From Streptomyces sp. MMBL 11-1 (lineage in GTDB: Bacteria > Actinomycetota > Actinomycetes > Streptomycetales > Streptomycetaceae), in assembly GCF_028622875.1 (NCBI RefSeq), contig NZ_CP117709.1:1550001-1614000 (forward strand): a DNA stretch of 64,000 bases, read 5' to 3'. Under the pieces are notes generated by a model. That model did no database searches, was not told where the DNA came from, and saw only the letters and a program-made list of their open reading frames with translations. Position 1 is the stretch's first letter. Each line of letters starts with the position of its first letter. The translations under genes were made by a program, and so were the position numbers. Positions 26,161 to 34,674 of the stretch are shown here, piece by piece.

Positions 26161-26220
26161 GAGGCGGATACGGTCGGGCCTCGGACGAGGCGGATCCGGT
26201 CGGGCGTCAGATGAGGCGGA
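26161..26220. repeat. 26-bp tandem repeat between convergent genes
   Basis: GAGGCGGAT starts at 26161, 26187 and, shortened to GAGGCGGA, at 26213, giving about 2.3 units of 26 bp. The last unit overlaps the end of the vWA gene (stop at 26207), so the repeat has reached into coding sequence. Confidence 0.8.
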
Positions 26221-27841
26221 AGAGATCCGCGGCGGCGTGGACGTCGGTGAGGTCCTCGATGGAGCGGAGGTTGTCGCACAGCGCGTCCAGGACCGAGCCG
26301 GCCTCGGCGGCCCCCGGGGCGCCGACGGCGAGGCCGAAGACGCGGAAGCCCAGCGCCCGCTTGGCGTCGTTCCAGCCACGCATCCATGCCTCGGTGACAC
26401 CGCATTCGTCGTCGGTGATCATCACGATGTCGCCGCGCGGGGTGGCGGCGTCGTCGAACTCCTCCTCCAGCAGTTCGCGGGCCGCTGTCAGGGGCGTCTG
26501 GTAGCTGGTGCCGCCGCCGAGGAAGGTTTCCGCGAAGTCGAGCACCTGCTCGACGCCTGCGGGCGGGCCGGCCGGGAAGCGGTGGACCTGGATCCTGTCC
26601 TCGGCGGAGAACAGGATGCCGACGAAGTCGCGCCCGGCATGGCGGGCCTGGTCCAGCAGCGCCAGGGCGCACGCCTTGGACCACGCCTCCCGCGTGACCC
26701 CGCCGGGCCCTGCCGCGTACATCGAGTGCGAGGTGTCCACGCACGCGATGACCGCGCCCCGCCCTGTCGGCTGCTCTCCCTGGCTGTCGTAGAGCATCAG
26801 CTCCCCGGCGGCGTACCGCGCGGCGAAGACGGCCCGCAGTTCGGGCAGGCCGAGGTTGGCCAGCTCGGAGGGGATCAGGCGGGAGAGGTCGTCGCCGAGC
26901 GTGACGCCGACCAGCTCCCCGGCGGTGCTCTCCACCTTGCGGGCGCGCTCCCCGTCGGCCATCTGCCGGAAGCGGCCGATCAGTTCGGCCCACCGGGCGA
27001 GGCGGCCGGCGCGCAGCCGCTCGGCGAGCCGGGCGCGCCGTGCGTACGGCATCCGTTCCAGCTCGCCGGAGCCCATGCCCCAGGCCCGCATCAGTACGGC
27101 CTCCTCCCGCACGGCCTCGGCGGCCTCCGCCGCGGCGTGGTGCGCGTCGGTGCGGAGGCCGGGAACAGTGGCGGCGCCCTGTGCGGCGCCCTGCGCGGCC
27201 TGCCGAGCCGTGCGCCCGGCCGCCTCGGCGGCCTCGATCGCCCGGTGCACGGCGTCGGCGGCCGAGGCCGGTACGTCGCCGTCCGCATCGGTCTCCTCGG
27301 CGGCCCGCTGGAGCGCGTCGGCCACGGCGGTCGCCGCGTTCTCGGCGTCCTGGCGGGCGTTCGCCGCCTGTTCGGCCTGCCGCTGGGCGTCCTCGGAGCG
27401 CTCCAGCATCCTGCGCAGGGCGCCGGACTGGGCGAGGACGGCCATGGCGGCGGCGTACGGGTCCCCGACGGTTTCCCTGCGCAGTGCGGCGAAGTCGGGA
27501 GACTCCACCAAGGCGGTGACGATCACGTGGTTGACCAGCCGCGAGGGGTCCATCTCCGCACGCTCGCGCAGTCGGAGGCCGGCCTTGTAGGCGGCCAGGA
27601 ACACATCGGCCAGGAGGTCGGCGGCGTGGTCGTGACGCGCGCCCAGTACCTCGGCCAGCTCGCGCAGTCCTTCGGACTGTTCGCAGGTGTCGCGCCAGGT
27701 GAGCCGTTCGAACCGGTCCGCGACGACGGCCCCGGCGCACCGCTCGGCGCTGGAGTGTCCGAGCCAGGTCCGGGCCCGGCCCGCCAGTGCGTCGAGCCCG
27801 GCCGGCGGTGTGCCCGTGCCGGTGTTCCCCCGGGCGTTCAG
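26207..27841 (-). CDS. vWA-domain protein, ViaA-like partner of the MoxR ATPase
   Basis: About 544 residues. The N-terminal and middle parts are helical, with an Ala/Glu-rich coiled stretch (about residues 150-260). The C-terminal von Willebrand A domain has the MIDAS motif CVDTSHSMY (about 365-373), a conserved late Thr (GGGTSYQTP) and IVMITDDECG. This pairing with a RavA-like AAA protein matches the RavA/ViaA logic. The start is problematic: in this frame no ATG, GTG or TTG occurs near the MoxR stop. The best candidate is a CTG at 27841 overlapping the MoxR stop as CTGA. The first GTG is more than 60 codons further in. Confidence 0.82.
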   Translation of the reverse strand: MNARGNTGTGTPPAGLDALAGRARTWLGHSSAERCAGAVVADRFERLTWRDTCEQSEGLRELAEVLGARHDHAADLLADVFLAAYKAGLRLRERAEMDPSRLVNHVIVTALVESPDFAALRRETVGDPYAAAMAVLAQSGALRRMLERSEDAQRQAEQAANARQDAENAATAVADALQRAAEETDADGDVPASAADAVHRAIEAAEAAGRTARQAAQGAAQGAATVPGLRTDAHHAAAEAAEAVREEAVLMRAWGMGSGELERMPYARRARLAERLRAGRLARWAELIGRFRQMADGERARKVESTAGELVGVTLGDDLSRLIPSELANLGLPELRAVFAARYAAGELMLYDSQGEQPTGRGAVIACVDTSHSMYAAGPGGVTREAWSKACALALLDQARHAGRDFVGILFSAEDRIQVHRFPAGPPAGVEQVLDFAETFLGGGTSYQTPLTAARELLEEEFDDAATPRGDIVMITDDECGVTEAWMRGWNDAKRALGFRVFGLAVGAPGAAEAGSVLDALCDNLRSIEDLTDVHAAADLFRLI

Positions 27842-29064
27842 AGCTGGGCCCTGACCATGCTCGCGTCCATGCCGAGTGCCTCGGTGAGGACGCGGGCGCG
27901 GACGGCGCGCTGACGGCCGGCGACCCGGTCGATGGCGGCGGTGGAGCGGCCGGCGCCCGCCGCCTCGGCGCGCAGTCTCTCCAGCCGCTTGCCCGCCGTG
28001 GCGAGCCTGTTGTGGGCCTTCTTGATGACCCAGTCGCTCAGCGCCTCGCGGGACTGCCCCGCCATGGCGTCGAGCTGTGCCTCCAGCTCGTCGAGGGCGT
28101 CGGCCAGGTCGAGCGCCTCCTTGGCGTCGGGGTTGACCAGGTGCAGTACCTCGCGCTCGACGGTGGGGCGCTGGGCCGGGGAGTCCCACAGGACGTGGGT
28201 GAGCACGGACAGGTCGGTCTCGGCGACCGCCGGGCGTCCGTCGAGGTACGCGGAGGCCTGGAGCAGTCCCACCGCCTGCCGCCAGCGGCGGTCGGAGGCG
28301 ACGAGTTCCTTGCGGCGCAGGGCCGCCCGCAGCGCGCACACGGCGTCCACGATGGCGTCGGGGACGTCCACGGCCGGAACGGACACGGTCACGGCGTACT
28401 GCAGCGCGGCCAGCTCGACGGTGGTACGGACCGGTGCCGCCGGCCGGCTGACGGCGGATCGGACCAGCGCGGCGAAGTTCGACGGGTCCGCCAGGTACCC
28501 GACCTCGATCCGCACCAGCAGCCGGTCGTAGATCGCGGCCGTGTCCTGTCCGGTGGGCAGTTCGTTGCTCGCCGTGATGGCGCCGATCAGGGGGCAGCGG
28601 ATCGGTTCCCCGCCGCTCTCCGGGTGGTAGATCCGCTCGTTGAGATAGCCCAGGGTCTCGTTCAGCGCCGCCGTGGAGCACTTGAAGATCTCGTCGATGA
28701 ACGCGACGTGCGCGGTCGTGGCGCGGCCCTCGTACACCTGGCGGTACTCCCCGCGGGCCAGCGCGGCGACGTCGACGGGACCGAACATCCTCGTCGGCGC
28801 GGTGAACTTCGACAGGAGGATCTCCCAGTAGGCCGCCCCCTCGACCCTGCCGGTGAGCTCCCGGGCGATCTCGGACTTCGCCGTCCCGGGCGGGCCGAGC
28901 ACCAGCGAGTGCTGCCCGGCGAGCAGCGCCACCACGAGCGTGCGCACCACGTCGGCCCGCTCGTAGAAGCGGTCCGACACCTCTTCGCAGATCGCCCGCA
29001 GCCCGGCGGCGGTGCCCTGCGCGTCCCCTGCGTCTCGCACGTCTGTACCTCGCACGTCCCGCAT
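27838..29064 (-). CDS. MoxR-family AAA+ ATPase (RavA-like)
   Basis: This 408-residue ATPase has Walker A GPPGTAKS (residues 57-64), Walker B VAFIDEIFKC (about 120-129), sensor region IGAITASNELP and a helical lid. A C-terminal LARA-like helical extension follows. MoxR proteins act as chaperones that insert metals or remodel complexes, usually with a vWA partner, which here is the next gene. Upstream are two tRNA-mimic RNAs and a terminator hairpin, so the ATPase and vWA genes likely have their own promoter between 29065 and 29126, or depend on read-through. Confidence 0.9.
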   Translation of the reverse strand: MRDVRGTDVRDAGDAQGTAAGLRAICEEVSDRFYERADVVRTLVVALLAGQHSLVLGPPGTAKSEIARELTGRVEGAAYWEILLSKFTAPTRMFGPVDVAALARGEYRQVYEGRATTAHVAFIDEIFKCSTAALNETLGYLNERIYHPESGGEPIRCPLIGAITASNELPTGQDTAAIYDRLLVRIEVGYLADPSNFAALVRSAVSRPAAPVRTTVELAALQYAVTVSVPAVDVPDAIVDAVCALRAALRRKELVASDRRWRQAVGLLQASAYLDGRPAVAETDLSVLTHVLWDSPAQRPTVEREVLHLVNPDAKEALDLADALDELEAQLDAMAGQSREALSDWVIKKAHNRLATAGKRLERLRAEAAGAGRSTAAIDRVAGRQRAVRARVLTEALGMDASMVRAQL

Positions 29065-29126: not shown

Positions 29127-29157
29127 GGGCCCGGAGGCGTAGCCGGCCTCCGGGCCC
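29127..29157. terminator. Hairpin between the permuted RNAs and the MoxR gene
   Basis: GGGCCCGGAGG (29127-29137) and CCTCCGGGCCC (29147-29157) form a perfect 11-bp stem with a 9-base loop. On the minus strand it lies about 60 bases beyond the second RNA, so it could define the 3' end of the RNA transcript. Confidence 0.7.
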
Positions 29158-29215
29158 TGAGTGTGCCGCCCATCGGGCACGCCGGCACGTTTAAGGATCC
29201 GGGTCAGTCTGATGT

Positions 29216-29285
29216 CGTCGCGTCCTGCCTTTGGACCACCGCAGATCGAAGCTCTGCGGGCCGGACTTGAACCGGCATTTCGACG
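29216..29285 (-). ncRNA. Permuted tRNA-like RNA 2
   Basis: Read on the minus strand, 70 bases fold as a complete cloverleaf in permuted order. The anticodon-stem 3' strand CGTCG (29285-29281) comes first, then spacer AAAT and the T arm GCCGG-TTCAAGT-CCGGC (29276-29260). Next are the acceptor 3' strand CCGCAGA (29259-29253), a 7-base loop GCTTCGA, and the acceptor 5' strand TCTGCGG (29245-29239). TG follows at tRNA positions 8-9, then the D arm GTCC-AAAGGCA-GGAC (29236-29222), a G, and the anticodon-stem 5' strand CGACG (29220-29216). Every helix is perfectly paired. The T loop is canonical and the D loop has the GG needed for docking. The closed acceptor end cannot be charged, so this is a tRNA mimic rather than a tRNA. 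Confidence 0.85.
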
Positions 29286-29361
29286 CGCGCGGGCCCGGGC
29301 CCGTTCGATCCGGCGATCGGCGGCGAATGCTGAGTCTGGAGCAAGAGTCTGAGATTGACGG

Positions 29362-29432
29362 CGGTCTGCCTCTGCCTGCTTGGGCTACTCCGGCCCGTGC
29401 CGGAGGGAGGAGTCGAACCTCCGCTGGGACCG
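29362..29432 (-). ncRNA. Permuted tRNA-like RNA 1
   Basis: On the minus strand, 71 bases form a second permuted cloverleaf. The anticodon-stem 3' strand is CGGTC (29432-29428), followed by variable loop CCAGC and the T arm GGAGG-TTCGACT-CCTCC (29422-29406). Then come the acceptor 3' strand CTCCGGC (29405-29399), a 4-base loop ACGG, the acceptor 5' strand GCCGGAG (29394-29388), and TA at positions 8-9. The D arm GCC...GGC has loop GG (29385-29368), then an A, then the anticodon-stem 5' strand GACCG (29366-29362). The acceptor stem is a perfect 7 bp. The D-arm sequence closely matches that of the tRNA-Leu at 62423. Both ends leave at the anticodon stem, the topology of Y RNA-type mimics. Confidence 0.85.
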
Positions 29433-29476
29433 CGCCTTCACGACAAGCTTCAGTTTCAGCTTGCGCTCCTCGCGCA

Positions 29477-29504
29477 CCCCGGCCGCCTTGAGCGGCGCCC
29501 GGGG
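29477..29504. terminator. GC-rich hairpin after the hypothetical gene
   Basis: On the minus strand CCCCGG...CCGGGG encloses GCCGC-TCAA-GGCGGC, starting 13 bases after the stop of the 243-residue gene. It may terminate that gene, partially terminate it, or mark the 5' side of the RNA 1 precursor. Confidence 0.6.
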
Positions 29505-29517
29505 AATCCATGGTCGG

Positions 29518-30249
29518 TCACCCGAAGAGGTAACCGAATACCGCATCACCCACCCGCTGGTCGGTGACCTCCGCGCCGTTGGCCTCCTCGCGGGCGAACT
29601 TCACGGCCTGCTGGAGCTTCTCGATCCGGTCCAGCAGTTCGTTGACGCGTCGCGCCGGCAGCGCCCCGGAGAACTTGACCGTCGTCCAGTACCCGATCGG
29701 GATGTCCTCGTAGTACACCTCGACCTGCGCCGGGTGCTTCTCGGTGGCCTCCGCCTTCACGTGGTTGCGGGGCACCTTCTTCGTGCGGACCGTGCGGACC
29801 GGCTCGGTCTTCCAGGAGTCGGTCGACGGGTCCTGGACCCAGGCCTCGGCCGCGTCCAGCACGGGCAGCTTGCGGACGAAGGTGTTGAGGTCGGTCAGCT
29901 GCTTCTCCAGGAAGAGCAGATACGACACCGGCACCTCGCTCACCAGCACCCGGCCGTCGACCGACACATCGGCCCTGGCCGAGCAGTTCGCCCAGTCCTT
30001 CGTGGCGGTCACATCGAAGAGCCGGGTCAGGGTGACCGCGGTCTCCCGCAGCACGTCCTCGGCCTTGACCTGGACGAGCGTCGACTCGGGCGGAAGCTGT
30101 TCGCCCTCCTCGTCCTTGGGCTGGTAGGTACGGGAGATCCCGGCCAGCAGTCCGGTCTTCTGGAGGCCGTGATGAGCCGCCGTCAGGTCCTGGTGTGCCT
30201 TGGACTTGACGCCCTTCTCCACTGCGATGATCTGATTGAGTTTCGCCAC
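29518..30249 (-). CDS. Conserved hypothetical protein beside the tRNA-mimic RNAs
   Basis: The 243-residue protein begins MAKLNQIIAVEKGVKSKAHQ. It contains ISRTYQPKDEEGEQLPPEST, LFDVTATKDWANCSARADV, VPVSYLLFLEKQLTDLNTFV and EATEKHPAQVEVYYEDIPIG, and ends VGDAVFGYLFG. I recall homologs of this distinctive sequence being widespread in bacteria (possibly DUF7873) but no established function. It has no signal peptide or membrane segment; helices and short strands alternate, and a basic patch TVRTKKVPRNHVKAEA could touch RNA. The GTG at 30249 is close to a TGTTAG -10-like sequence, so the mRNA may be leaderless. Its position directly upstream of the two RNAs suggests it is their protein partner; that is inference. 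Confidence 0.8.
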   Translation of the reverse strand: MAKLNQIIAVEKGVKSKAHQDLTAAHHGLQKTGLLAGISRTYQPKDEEGEQLPPESTLVQVKAEDVLRETAVTLTRLFDVTATKDWANCSARADVSVDGRVLVSEVPVSYLLFLEKQLTDLNTFVRKLPVLDAAEAWVQDPSTDSWKTEPVRTVRTKKVPRNHVKAEATEKHPAQVEVYYEDIPIGYWTTVKFSGALPARRVNELLDRIEKLQQAVKFAREEANGAEVTDQRVGDAVFGYLFG

Positions 30250-30292: not shown

Positions 30293-31648
30293 TTACCGTA
30301 CGTAGTGGGGGTCGTCGTCCCCGGTGGTGTCCGGTACGGAGTCACCGGCCAGCATCGCTTCGAGGACGGAGACCGGGTCGGGGCCCGGAGCGGCTCGCGG
30401 CCACCAGTCGTCGGCGCCGGGGTCGGATTCGTAGCCGTACCACCGGTGGTCGTGGCCGAAGCGGAGCTGGAGCGAACCGTCCGGGTGGGTGAGGTGGTTG
30501 CGCCGGGGCGTGAAGCGCGGGAAGCCGGCGGCGGCGAGGGCGGGCCTGGCCCGGTCGAAGGGGCCGGCCGGCGGGTCCCAGGGCGTCTCCAGGACCGCGA
30601 GGCCCTCGGCGTCGCCCTGTCGCCAGGCGGCGACGGCGCGGGCGAGGTCGGTGGTGGTGCGGCCGGTGGCGTAGGCCAGCTCCCGGTAGAGCGCGCGGGT
30701 GGTGGCGGTGAGCCCGGCGGTCCGCCGTGCGGCGGCGAGGCGGACCGCGTCCTGCCACGGGGTGAGCCCGGCCAGCGGATCACGGCCCGTGGTCAGCAGG
30801 GCGTGGGCGCGGGCGGCGGCGTCGGTGGCGAGGTGGTCCAGGGCCAGCGGGTCGCGGGCGCCGGGCAGATCGGGATACGACGGTGGCTGGCCGGGGTGCG
30901 GCGGTACGGGCAGGGGCGCCGGGAGCGGCGGCAGGAAGCGGGCGGCGAAGGCCTCCCGGGCCCCGACCGACGGAACGTCGGGGGCGGCGGGGCGCTCGCG
31001 GGCGGAGTGCTCGGCGTTGCGCCGGCCCAGCTCGTCCAGCAGCTCGCGCTCGCCCCGGCCCCGCATCAGCAGGAGGACGAACGGGTCACTGTCGAGCAGC
31101 AGGGCCGTCTGGAAGCAGAGGGCGGCGACGTGTTTGCAGGGCCGCCCGTGGTCGGGGCAGGTGCAGCTCGGGTCGAGGTCGTCGGCGGCGGGCAGCAGCC
31201 GGACACCGGCCTCCTCGGCGGTGTGGGCCAGGGAGTGCGGCATCTCCTTGGCCAGCAGCGCGGACAGGTGGCCGGGGTGGGCGGCGACCGCGTCGAGCAG
31301 GGTCTCCCAGCCGGGGTCGGTGAAGGTGCGCAGCCGCAGTTCGGCGCGGTAGGGGCGGGCCCGGCTGCCGTGCACATAGGCGACGACGCGTCCGGGGGTG
31401 ACGGTGATCGCGGCGACCTGCCCGTCGTCGGCGTACGCGCGGCCGCGGGCGAGGCGGGCCTCGTCCATCGACAGCGACTCCAGCGCGTCCACCCAGGCCC
31501 GGCCCCACCAGCTGCCCGCGAACGGCTCGCCCTCGGCGGATGTGCGGGCGGGCACCGCCTCGAAGGTGCGCCGCAGATCGTCCGGGCCGGGCCGGGCGCG
31601 GGGGGCCGATCGCCGGGCGGCGGGGCCGGTGGCCGGGCGGGGGCTCAT
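30293..31648 (-). CDS. SWIM zinc-finger protein
   Basis: This 451-residue protein has a SWIM motif CTCPDHGRPCKHVAAL (ligands about Cys162, Cys164, Cys171, His173), which binds zinc and usually nucleic acid or protein. The remainder is Ala/Pro/Arg-rich with a conserved C-terminal region near WWPRAAP. Its ATG overlaps the helicase stop (ATGA), so the two are co-translated and almost certainly work together. SWIM proteins paired with SNF2 helicases are common in actinomycetes; the DNA or RNA process they serve is not defined. Confidence 0.9.
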   Translation of the reverse strand: MSPRPATGPAARRSAPRARPGPDDLRRTFEAVPARTSAEGEPFAGSWWGRAWVDALESLSMDEARLARGRAYADDGQVAAITVTPGRVVAYVHGSRARPYRAELRLRTFTDPGWETLLDAVAAHPGHLSALLAKEMPHSLAHTAEEAGVRLLPAADDLDPSCTCPDHGRPCKHVAALCFQTALLLDSDPFVLLLMRGRGERELLDELGRRNAEHSARERPAAPDVPSVGAREAFAARFLPPLPAPLPVPPHPGQPPSYPDLPGARDPLALDHLATDAAARAHALLTTGRDPLAGLTPWQDAVRLAAARRTAGLTATTRALYRELAYATGRTTTDLARAVAAWRQGDAEGLAVLETPWDPPAGPFDRARPALAAAGFPRFTPRRNHLTHPDGSLQLRFGHDHRWYGYESDPGADDWWPRAAPGPDPVSVLEAMLAGDSVPDTTGDDDPHYVR

Positions 31649-34600
31649 GCGGGCCTCCGCAGCGATACGAGGTCGGCGAGGTCACGGTCGCTGAGCTCGG
31701 TCAGGGCGCTCTCGCCGCTGCCGAGCACCGCGTCGGCGAGGACCCGCTTGGACTCCAGCAGCTCGGCGATCCGGTCCTCCACCGTGCCCTCCGCGATGAT
31801 CCGGTGGACCTGCACGGGCTGGGTCTGGCCGATCCGGTACGCCCGGTCGGTGGCCTGCTCCTCCACGGCGGGGTTCCACCAGCGGTCGAAGTGGACGACA
31901 TGGGCGGCGCGGGTCAGATTCAGCCCGGTGCCGGCCGCCTTGAGGGAGAGCAGGAAGACGGGGACCTCGGCGGACTGGAAGCGGTCCACCATCCGCTCCC
32001 GCTCGGCCACCGGCGTACCGCCGTGGAGGAGCTGGGAGGGAATCGCGCGGGAGGCGAGGTGTGCGGAGAGGAGCTTCGCCATCGCCACGTACTGCGTGAA
32101 GATCAGGACCGAGCCCTCCTCGGACAGGATCGTGTCGAGCAGTTCGTCGAGGAGGGCGAGCTTGCCGGAGCGGCCCGTGAGCCGGGTCGGCTCCTCCTTC
32201 AGATACTGGGCGGGGTGGTTGCAGATCTGCTTGAGCGAGGTCAGCAGCTTCATGACGAGACCCCGGCGGGCGATGCCCTCCGCCGCCTCGATCTGCGCCA
32301 TCGTCTCGCGGACGGCAGCCTCGTAGAGCGTGGCCTGCTCACGGGTGAGGGAGACGGGGTGGTCGGTCTCCGTCTTGGGCGGCAGCTCGGGGGCGATGCC
32401 GGGATCGGACTTCTTGCGCCGCAGGAGGAAGGGCCGCACCAGCCGGGACAGCCGCTCCACCGCCTCCTCGTTGCCCAGGCCCGCGGCGGTGCCGGTGTTC
32501 TCCACGATCCGGGCGTGCCGGGCCCGGAACGCCTTGAGCGGGCCGAGCAGTCCGGGTGTGGTCCAGTCGAGGAGGGCCCAGAGCTCGGAGAGGTTGTTCT
32601 CGACGGGGGTGCCGGTGAGGGCGACCCGGGCCGGGGCAGGGATGGTGCGCAGCGCCTTGGCCGTGGAGGAGTGCGGATTCTTGACGTGCTGCGCCTCGTC
32701 GGCGACGACCAGGCCCCAGCTCTGCTCGGCGAGCTGGGGAGCGCTGGAGCGCATCGTGCCGTAGGTGGTGAGGACGAAGCCGCCGTCCGGGTCGCTCAGG
32801 GTGCGGTCCGTGCCGTGGAAGCGGCGCACGGGGACGCCGGGGGCGAAGCGGTTGATCTCTCGGTGCCAGTTGCCGAGGAGGGAGGCGGGGCAGACCACCA
32901 GGGTGGGCGAGGGGTGCGCCCGGTGCAGATGGAGGGCGATGAGGGTGATCGTCTTGCCGAGGCCCATGTCGTCGGCGAGGCAGCCGCCGAGCCCGAGCGA
33001 GGTCATCCGGTCCAGCCAGGCCAGACCGCGCAGTTGGTAGTCGCGCAGGGTCGCGTCGAGGCCGGGCGGGGGCGCGATCGTGGTGTCCTGGGCGAGGATC
33101 CGCGTACGGAGGGCGGCCAGCGCCCCGGCGGGCACGGCGTCCACCCGCTCGCCGTCCACCTCCGCGCTGCCGGTGAGGGCGACGGCGAGCGCGTCCACCG
33201 GGTCCAGGAGCCCCAGCTCCCGCTTGCGCGCCTTGCGTACGAGGGCGGGGTCGACGACCACCCACTGGTCGCGCAGCCGTACCACCGGGCGGTGGGCCTC
33301 GGCCAGGGCGTCCATCTCGGCCTCGGTCAGCCGCTCCTCCCCCAGGGACAGCTGCCAGTCGAAGGCGAAGAGGTGCTCGGCGTCGAAGAAGGACGTGCCG
33401 TCGGTGGCCGATCCGGGCGCGGGCCGCACGACGGCGGTCGCGGTGAGGGAACGGGCCAGCTCGCGCGGCCAGTGCACCTCGACCCCGGCGGCGGCCAGCC
33501 GGGATCCCGCGTCGCTCAGCAGCTCGTACAGCTCGTCCTCGGTGATCGCGAGCACATCGGGGACGGGCTGCCCCAGCAGCCGTTCCAGCGGGGCCCAGAC
33601 GCGGGCGGCGCGGCGCAGCGCCAGCACCGCGTCGACCCGGGCGCGCGGCCCGAACGGCTCGCCCGCCCCGCCGTTCCACAGGGCGGCCGCGTCCACCACG
33701 TAGGTCGGGTCGGCGAGGCTGTGCACCTGGACGACGGCAGCGGCGGCGTGCCGGACCGCCGGGTCGTCCGGATGTTCCGGCGCAGATCCGTCGGCGGTCT
33801 CCGCCGCCTCCCCGGCGGCCGTGACCGCGTAGGTGTCGGCGGTGTCGAACAGTTCGTACGCGGAGAGGTCCAGCCGCAGCGAGACCCGCACGCCCGCGTC
33901 CAGGCCCGAGGCGACCTCCACGGCCCAGGCCGCGGCATGGGGCAGATGCTGGGGCTCGTGCGCGGCGAACGGCGCCCCCATCGCGAACGCGGCGGCGGGC
34001 GTGCGTGGCAGGGTGTCGGCGACGGCGTCCAGGAACGCCCCGATCAGGGTTTCGGGGTCGGGGAGCCGGGGCGCCCCGGAACCGGGGACCGGTGCCGCGT
34101 GCCCCTCGGGCGGCAGGGCGGCGGCGACCGCCCGCAGATGCGCGACGTCCTCGGCGCCCCTCGGGCCCGCCCGCCAGGCGTCGTGACCGTCCGCCGTGAG
34201 TCCGGGGAGGAGCCGGCCGCGGGCGACGAGCTGAAGTGCGTGCAGAGCGGCCGCGCCCCAGCAGCGCGTGGCGGGGTGGGCGGAGCTCTGGTGACGTGCC
34301 CGGAGGAGCAGGGGCAGCGCGTCGGCCACGGACAGCAACGCCACGGGCGTCACCACGGCGCGGACGCTCCCGGGGCCCGCCGCCGGGTCCGGCCGGACCA
34401 TCGTGAGCCGGGCGTCGGTGTACGGGACGGAGTCGGGGTGATCGGGGGTCTCCACGTACGTGAAGGGCGTCCCGCTCCCTCCCCGCGCGTCGTCGTGCCA
34501 CGGACCGGCGTCCGCGAGCGGGTCCCAGAAGGCGACGCGACCGTCCCGGGGCACCGGGCCGGGCAGGAAGACCGCCGCGCGGCGCAGCAGCCGTGCGGCG

Positions 34601-34674
34601 TCCGCGGTCCGGGGCGTGGCCCCGGTGTTGTCCCGCCGCTCGCTTTCTCGGGCCCCTGCTGTCATGTCCCCCAC
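31645..34674 (-). CDS. SNF2-family helicase
   Basis: About 1009 residues. The C-terminal two thirds hold the SNF2 motor: motif I DDMGLGKTITLIAL, motif II VADEAQHVKNP, motif III ALTGTPVENNLSELW, motif V GTGLNLTRAAHVVHFDRWWNP and motif VI RAYRIGQTQPV. The N-terminal 400 residues are a family-specific region without recognised motifs. An ATG nine bases downstream (34665) is an alternative start. The downstream SWIM gene overlaps by four bases. The expected activity is ATP-driven translocation on double-stranded DNA, remodelling protein-DNA or polymerase complexes. Confidence 0.93.
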   Translation of the reverse strand: MGDMTAGARESERRDNTGATPRTADAARLLRRAAVFLPGPVPRDGRVAFWDPLADAGPWHDDARGGSGTPFTYVETPDHPDSVPYTDARLTMVRPDPAAGPGSVRAVVTPVALLSVADALPLLLRARHQSSAHPATRCWGAAALHALQLVARGRLLPGLTADGHDAWRAGPRGAEDVAHLRAVAAALPPEGHAAPVPGSGAPRLPDPETLIGAFLDAVADTLPRTPAAAFAMGAPFAAHEPQHLPHAAAWAVEVASGLDAGVRVSLRLDLSAYELFDTADTYAVTAAGEAAETADGSAPEHPDDPAVRHAAAAVVQVHSLADPTYVVDAAALWNGGAGEPFGPRARVDAVLALRRAARVWAPLERLLGQPVPDVLAITEDELYELLSDAGSRLAAAGVEVHWPRELARSLTATAVVRPAPGSATDGTSFFDAEHLFAFDWQLSLGEERLTEAEMDALAEAHRPVVRLRDQWVVVDPALVRKARKRELGLLDPVDALAVALTGSAEVDGERVDAVPAGALAALRTRILAQDTTIAPPPGLDATLRDYQLRGLAWLDRMTSLGLGGCLADDMGLGKTITLIALHLHRAHPSPTLVVCPASLLGNWHREINRFAPGVPVRRFHGTDRTLSDPDGGFVLTTYGTMRSSAPQLAEQSWGLVVADEAQHVKNPHSSTAKALRTIPAPARVALTGTPVENNLSELWALLDWTTPGLLGPLKAFRARHARIVENTGTAAGLGNEEAVERLSRLVRPFLLRRKKSDPGIAPELPPKTETDHPVSLTREQATLYEAAVRETMAQIEAAEGIARRGLVMKLLTSLKQICNHPAQYLKEEPTRLTGRSGKLALLDELLDTILSEEGSVLIFTQYVAMAKLLSAHLASRAIPSQLLHGGTPVAERERMVDRFQSAEVPVFLLSLKAAGTGLNLTRAAHVVHFDRWWNPAVEEQATDRAYRIGQTQPVQVHRIIAEGTVEDRIAELLESKRVLADAVLGSGESALTELSDRDLADLVSLRRPA

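Follow-up and report, generated by a model that had tools for sequence, protein, structure and literature searches.

The closest described system is the bacterial Y RNA YrlA (RF02553; structure 6CU1), whose tRNA-like module is set out as a circular permutation in PMC11472068 and PMC8394870, the latter also describing how its basal stem binds Rsr while the tRNA-like domain binds PNPase. PMC7790460, a paper on damaged tRNAs, treats this domain as a possible competitive inhibitor of an anticodon nuclease. Permuted two-piece tmRNAs are likewise on record (PMC3978253), as are circularly permuted tRNA genes, and tRNAs carried by phages are reported as counter-defence in PMC10264068 and PMC11555353. 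The locus presented here lies in a window of 64,000 nucleotides from Streptomyces sp. MMBL 11-1 (NZ_CP117709.1, positions 1,550,001 to 1,614,000), where a first-pass annotation had proposed two tandem circularly permuted tRNA-like RNAs. The analysis points to two such units as the heads of one larger structured RNA, predicted to span ~29504-29127 of the minus strand (~380 nt), directly downstream of a gene encoding the uncharacterized domain DUF7873 (Table 1). In sequence comparison, the conserved region is real and widespread, and the predicted RNA structure is strongly supported by covariation.

Table 1. Features of the predicted RNA and its upstream neighbor, in 5' to 3' order on the minus strand; coordinates are those of the window.
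Feature	Coordinates	Strand	Basis
DUF7873 gene (PF25283), upstream neighbor of the RNA	29518..30249	-	Pfam E 5.4e-119; GTG start inferred from homologs
5' hairpin CCCCGG...CCGGGG	29477..29504	-	Conserved in alignment, MFE fold
Small hairpin TGCGC-GAGGA-GCGCA	29462..29476	-	Alignment, MFE fold
5' segment, hexamer-periodic RRYUSA; imperfect pairing with linker probable	29438..29461	-	Periodicity, motif count, MFE fold
Unit 1, permuted tRNA-like head (anticodon 3' strand, T arm, acceptor 3', 4-nt loop, acceptor 5', U8-A9, D arm, anticodon 5' strand)	29361..29433	-	Finder, alignments; predicted fold
Linker, probable partner strand of 5' segment	29327..29360	-	Alignment, periodicity, motif count, MFE fold
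Pa 5' strand CGCCGG	29310..29315	-	Covariation
Internal-loop strand AUCGAAC (consensus AUCGACC), conserved; candidate protein site	29303..29309	-	Alignments
Pb 5' strand	29294..29302	-	Covariation
Unit 2, permuted tRNA-like head	29216..29285	-	Finder, RNAalifold, covariance model
Pb 3' strand	29195..29203	-	Covariation
Internal-loop strand CUUAAACG, conserved; first C doubles as last Pb base	29188..29195	-	Alignments
Pa 3' strand CCGGCG	29180..29185	-	Covariation
3' GC-rich hairpin, loop CGGCUAC; possible RNA 3' end	29127..29157	-	Alignments, MFE fold

Both permuted units were recovered on the minus strand where they had been proposed (unit 1, 29362-29432; unit 2, 29216-29285) by an independent, purpose-written finder that looks for the order anticodon 3' strand, T arm, acceptor 3' strand, loop, acceptor 5' strand, two bases, D arm and anticodon 5' strand. 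The details read earlier from the letters were reproduced: in each unit the T (5/5 pairs), acceptor (7/7) and anticodon (5/5) stems are complete, the T loops are TTCGACT in unit 1 and TTCAAGT in unit 2, both D loops contain GG, and the acceptors are closed by 4 and 7 nt, respectively. These acceptor loops read ACGG and GCTTCGA, neither containing CCA. With a score of at least 21, the finder returned a single additional match in the window, located on the plus strand and with a loop of 26 nt. ARAGORN placed a false tRNA-Phe call over part of unit 1 (29397-29483), and Rfam yielded no match at gathering score here, the sole sub-threshold match being YrlA, with 23.2 bits over unit 1. The same finder was then applied to 181 loci encoding DUF7873, drawn from 12 records (11 phages and one plasmid record), 80 genome loci (79 titled Streptomyces), 88 viral contigs and a paralogue; the set includes near-duplicate viral contigs, as well as two loci (L059 and L140) for which the ORF walk was unsuccessful. 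Within 910 nt 3' of DUF7873, at least one unit was identified in 165 of the 181 loci and at least two in 83 (records, 11 and 7 of 12; genome loci, 79 and 46 of 80; viral contigs, 74 and 30 of 88; the paralogue, one unit). In the control regions upstream of DUF7873, one unit was found in 7 of 179 loci and two in none, and mononucleotide shuffles gave 1 of 181. The units thus occur beyond chance expectation, in line with the first-pass annotation, which had judged chance very unlikely.

A lack of covariation in homologous loci was one of the conditions under which that proposal would have been refuted, and compensatory changes were found in both sequence sets analyzed. Of the 37 distinct Streptomyces domain-2 sequences, 36 were submitted to RNAalifold without a given structure; the program recovered the lower helices Pa and Pb together with the four tRNA stems of unit 2, with 16 compensatory pairs. 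When the structure was fixed, 98.1% of cells in these 36 sequences were paired, a value as high as this being reached in 0 of 500 shuffles, and slid registers gave 38-46%. A covariance model of domain 2, R1, was built from Streptomyces sequences only (the unit 2 region of the window scores 148.5 bits, its own sequence being among those modelled) and searched against 92 previously unseen phage, viral, plasmid-record and paralogue loci, that is, the 101 loci outside the Streptomyces set minus nine near-duplicates. R1 matched 65 of them at E <=5e-7, leaving 27 of the 92 without a match at this threshold. Among these 65 unseen sequences (64 distinct), 96.0% of cells are paired and both sides have changed in 35 of the 36 pairs, including 6/6 pairs of Pa and 9/9 pairs of Pb among the 64 distinct sequences, with 788 both-side-changed cells versus 200 in shuffled data and slid registers at 39-44%. 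The alignment of the unseen sequences was fitted to the structure and hence leans towards it; circularity is nonetheless argued against by the fall in slid registers and by the derivation of the model from Streptomyces alone. For unit 1, the T, acceptor and D stems are paired in 99.4%, 99.5% and 100% of cells, respectively, in 31 of the 36 non-Streptomyces sequences listed, and the same three arms were recovered by RNAalifold without a given structure. Its anticodon stem was not recovered by RNAalifold and rests on the finder, which requires this stem, and on the single-sequence fold.

R1 was also searched in 199 Streptomyces genomes, some species of which contributed to the model, yielding 93 full-length matches of at least 67.6 bits in 92 genomes. 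The other matches listed in the genus are partial and reach at most 44 bits, some showing the 78-nt spacing of tandem tRNA genes; since 147 of the 199 genomes exceed an E-value of 0.001 when such weak matches are included, that tally is not a proxy of RNA presence. The weak matches are one reason to ask whether chance folds, or tandem tRNA genes in decay, might have been misread as permuted tRNAs throughout. A tandem pair of tRNA-Asn genes in the source genome (L001, ~1490-1640) does produce just this kind of artefact, scoring 38.4 bits with the YrlA model, and tRNA arrays are present in some of the phage loci. In the units themselves, however, the acceptor halves pair within each unit and show compensatory changes in 7/7 pairs, Pa and Pb covary although they lie outside any tRNA, and a clear score gap separates weak matches from the strong ones, every one of which follows DUF7873. 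We therefore regard a tandem-tRNA or chance origin as practically negligible.

The permuted units were originally described as free-standing mimics with their ends at the anticodon stem. This part of the description does not hold, because further predicted helices continue beneath the units: Pa, Pb and a probable helix of the 5' segment and the linker. In an alignment of the window with 40 of the 80 genome loci (41 sequences), the conserved run comprises two 5' hairpins, the 5' segment, unit 1, the linker, the Pa and Pb strands and unit 2, followed by Pb', CUUAAACG or a variant, Pa' and the GC-rich 3' hairpin. When the sequence of this locus was folded singly, the MFE structure followed the same plan, with only modest stability (z -2.13). 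The loop of the 3' hairpin is UCGGAUAUG in some phage copies; the hairpin was not scored as a terminator and no T run follows it. Head 1 is absent in 17 of the 41 Streptomyces sequences, and two heads are therefore dispensable there. In these cases a shorter stretch caps the stem; it is a simple 8-bp hairpin in two loci (L042, L054) and longer in three (L040, L067, L077), and the flanks and unit 2 are kept.

The strands lying on either side of unit 1 share a hexamer periodicity. In 37 non-Streptomyces 5' segments, identity at lag 6 is 0.452 versus 0.253 in shuffled segments (sd 0.011), with 0.374 at lag 12 and 0.334 at lag 18. The non-Streptomyces linkers show identities of 0.353 at lag 6 and 0.259 at lag 12, and control regions remain at 0.24-0.28 at every lag; the Streptomyces values, 0.401 and 0.446, come from closely related sequences. 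The underlying motif, RRYUSA, has an invariant U and A in the first two repeats and occurs 2.27 times per 5' segment and 1.05 times per linker, versus 0.19 in controls. Segments and linkers from the same locus pair better than cross-locus combinations after correction for composition (mean -4.39, permutation sd 0.56, 0/5000), in a test where relatedness among loci is still present, yet only 68.4% of cells in the drawn helix are paired in the phage/viral MAFFT alignment. We tentatively read the two strands as forming an imperfect helix to which protein would bind; if so bound, hexamer-periodic arms would constitute an unusual RNA-protein geometry.

Genomic linkage offers a candidate for such a protein. 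For each of the 93 strong R1 matches in the 199 genomes, a DUF7873 match precedes the RNA on the same strand at a distance of 26-351 nt, so that the RNA is not seen strongly without DUF7873 in the genus, and conversely 93 of the 94 DUF7873 places carry a strong RNA match (the exception being in genome G405). Outside the Streptomyces set, 63 of the 65 R1 matches are likewise located 3' of DUF7873 on the same strand, the two unusual placings being a match upstream of the gene in L169 and one on the opposite strand in L160. DUF7873 is thus likely to be the protein partner of the RNA. The same arrangement could arise from a cis element, in which the heads, as part of the 3' UTR of the DUF7873 mRNA, would govern its stability or expression through tRNA-binding proteins, and no sigma-70-like promoter was found in the gap between gene and RNA, a weak test in Streptomyces. 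The placings in L169 and L160, however, do not fit a 3' UTR, and the predicted fold gives the RNA itself a hairpin at its 5' side and another at its 3' side, making a cis-acting role, in our estimation, decidedly unlikely. No structure matching DUF7873 was found in PDB or BFVD at E 0.001, so that RNA binding by this domain is put forward as a prediction; neither its name nor a description of the RNA was found in the open PMC papers searched.

DUF7873 is present in 93 of the 199 Streptomyces genomes, in 7 of 396 genomes across the phylum, all seven from the same genus, and in one of 14 control genomes (Deinobacterium chartae). Of the 7,999 candidate proteins scored, 7,529 fall within the family at E 1e-3. 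Relatives were identified by tblastn in 73 of 50,697 phage records and 4 of 72,556 plasmid records, the phages being those of Vibrio, Gordonia, Rhizobium, Klebsiella, Serratia, Arthrobacter, Pseudanabaena, Rhodococcus and Microcoleus, so that actinobacterial, proteobacterial and cyanobacterial hosts are on record. The source genome encodes a second, unlinked copy of DUF7873, adjoining an adenosine-deaminase-like gene recognized from its translation; domain 2 is present at this copy (R1, 100.3 bits), where the finder also returned unit 2, and unit 1, read by eye, has T, acceptor and D arms and a less regular anticodon stem (20.5 bits).

The first-pass annotation also likened the units to bacterial Y RNAs. 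The likeness stands as far as topology is concerned: as in YrlA, a permuted module of T, acceptor and D arms is entered from the anticodon side, with a basal stem below, which would make this the second natural example of a tRNA elbow mounted on a helix in this way. Membership in the YrlA family is not supported by the tests run. A divergent YrlA-like Y RNA, whose modules would join PNPase or some other enzyme to a Ro60-type protein, the place of Ro60 being taken by DUF7873, would account for the identical permutation, for the end-to-end alignment of RF02553 with unit 1 and with the units of eight related phage, viral and plasmid-record loci (23.8-44.7 bits), and for a division of labor like that reported for YrlA in PMC8394870. 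Nevertheless, every RF02553 match, in the window and in 20 related loci, falls below the gathering score of 69, and the two tandem, ordinary tRNA-Asn genes score as highly as noted above with this model, meaning that such scores report only tRNA-like pieces in permuted order. YrlA has one module with a basal stem in 90-150 nt, whereas here two modules, each with a lower stem, belong to a predicted ~380 nt RNA that is linked to DUF7873 and carries RRYUSA arms and an AUCGACC/CUUAAACG loop. The source genome contains no TROVE/Ro60 match, and 45 of the 93 DUF7873 genomes in the genus lack one, the others matching only ~60-77 of 442 positions. Of the 199 genomes, 94 have partial TROVE matches, and these co-occur with DUF7873 at chance level (48 of the 93; Fisher p 0.26). 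Taken together, we consider a YrlA-like identity unlikely. The TROVE matches in these 94 genomes cover a patch at ~278-354 of 442 and perhaps represent a different protein family.

Unit 2 keeps the residue signature of the tRNA elbow. The elbow of a tRNA is built by U8, A14, GG, U54, U55, C56 and A58, and in unit 2 of the 65 unseen sequences these are retained in 65 (U8), 65 (A14), 60 (GG), 65 (U54), 60 (U55), 65 (C56) and 63 (A58) cases. At the acceptor, G1-C72 is found in 61 of the 64 distinct sequences and the remaining pairs vary freely, such that no aminoacylation identity is visible in unit 2; G3-U70, the alanine identity pair, occurs in 1 of 64 outside Streptomyces. NCCA opens the acceptor loop outside Streptomyces in 23 of 41 unit 1 and 28 of 66 unit 2 instances (51 of 107), compared with ~1.7 for each in shuffled loops, and in Streptomyces in 7 of 40 and 2 of 46 (9 of 86), with 0 of 2 in the window; for these counts units were sorted by D stem, and a few tRNA-array matches may be included. 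The NCCA instances, together with the precedent of the permuted tRNA-like domain of two-piece tmRNA (PMC3978253), could indicate a permuted tmRNA-like gene, in which RNase P and 3' processing would open the acceptor loops and the CCA ends would be charged for a role in translation. We deem this very unlikely, given the scarcity of NCCA in Streptomyces and the loops of the window, the free variation of the unit 2 acceptor stem except for G1-C72, the near-absence of the alanine identity pair and the predicted lack of an anticodon loop; in addition, two heads and a D stem are present here. As in circularly permuted tRNA genes, the 3' half is encoded before the 5' half and the acceptor ends would be joined in the transcript, but the anticodon-side strands of unit 2 enter the covarying Pb and Pa, and head 1 can be absent.

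The interpretation that we hold to be somewhat more probable than its negation is that one ~380-nt RNA, whose two heads would be permuted tRNA elbows, forms a functional ribonucleoprotein together with DUF7873 and presents tRNA mimics to enzymes acting on tRNA. The minus-strand sequence would be expressed as a single RNA molecule, and DUF7873 would bind its conserved core, through the RRYUSA arms, the AUCGACC/CUUAAACG internal loop or both; least certain of all, the heads would probably act as decoy or tether towards enzymes recognizing the elbow and acceptor end of tRNA. By analogy with YrlA and with tRNA-based counter-defence in phages, a DUF7873 ribonucleoprotein displaying elbows in this manner is the favored reading. 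The genome-wide linkage strengthens the tie to DUF7873, not the function of the heads, and, since the anticodon side runs into helices, no ordinary 7-nt anticodon loop would be offered to anticodon nucleases. At least three ARAGORN tRNA calls were obtained in the flanks of 25 of 77 viral loci and 0 of 76 Streptomyces loci, whereas any call was obtained in 45 of 77 and 32 of 76, respectively, single calls being possibly false, as over unit 1. Most viral loci are not in tRNA arrays, and the location of the RNA among several tRNA genes in about one third of them would fit counter-defence or tRNA maintenance; the RNA differs from phage tRNA arrays in not consisting of decodable tRNAs and in its linkage to DUF7873. 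A bolder extension, which we put forward tentatively and consider possible rather than probable, envisages a previously undescribed, phage-borne class of ribonucleoprotein in which DUF7873 multimerizes on an RNA scaffold with hexamer-periodic RRYUSA arms, the two heads either bait or sense immune systems that target tRNA, and many phage copies retain NCCA; this class would have been domesticated in Streptomyces, with head 1 pruned in many lineages. Permuted tRNA mimicry, known from YrlA, appears here in doubled form and with an unrelated, widespread protein family; DUF7873 gains a testable candidate RNA partner, and the finding bears on the reasons for which phages retain tRNA-like RNAs.

The MoxR/vWA genes that the first-pass annotation gave as context proved incidental. 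The bpMoxR ATPase (PF20030) and vWA genes (26207-29064, minus strand) are situated between the RNA and an aminotransferase gene; the pair is not conserved, being found near 1 and 2 of the 80 genome loci, respectively. It therefore looks like a local insertion, given that MoxR is near 1 of 80 loci versus 23 of 80 for the aminotransferase. Among other loci, one Streptomyces genome (G570:C1:5682539-5682953) presents a DUF7873 match spanning model positions 73-157 only, possibly a degraded gene, beside a kept and strong RNA (89.3 bits). In a Microcoleus phage (L011, 3941-4150), a HEARO RNA (RF02033, 129 bits) is located 3' of DUF7873, and the finder detected no permuted unit there. Further, weaker R1 matches 1.2-2.3 kb 3' of DUF7873 in L142 (4986-5126), L162 (5303-5598) and L177 (5000-5465) could represent additional copies of the RNA or else tRNA arrays. 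In Gordonia phage Phendrix (L006, 1075-1603), a tmRNA match (RF00023, 89 bits) falls in a stretch without annotated features, within the tRNA array that this phage carries close to DUF7873. Upstream of DUF7873 in the window (30293-34674, minus strand) are genes for a SWIM zinc-finger protein and an SNF2 helicase of the SCO1167/SCO6262 family, found near 19 and 16 of the 80 genome loci, respectively, the helicase giving DpdE/ZorD-like matches in PADLOC.
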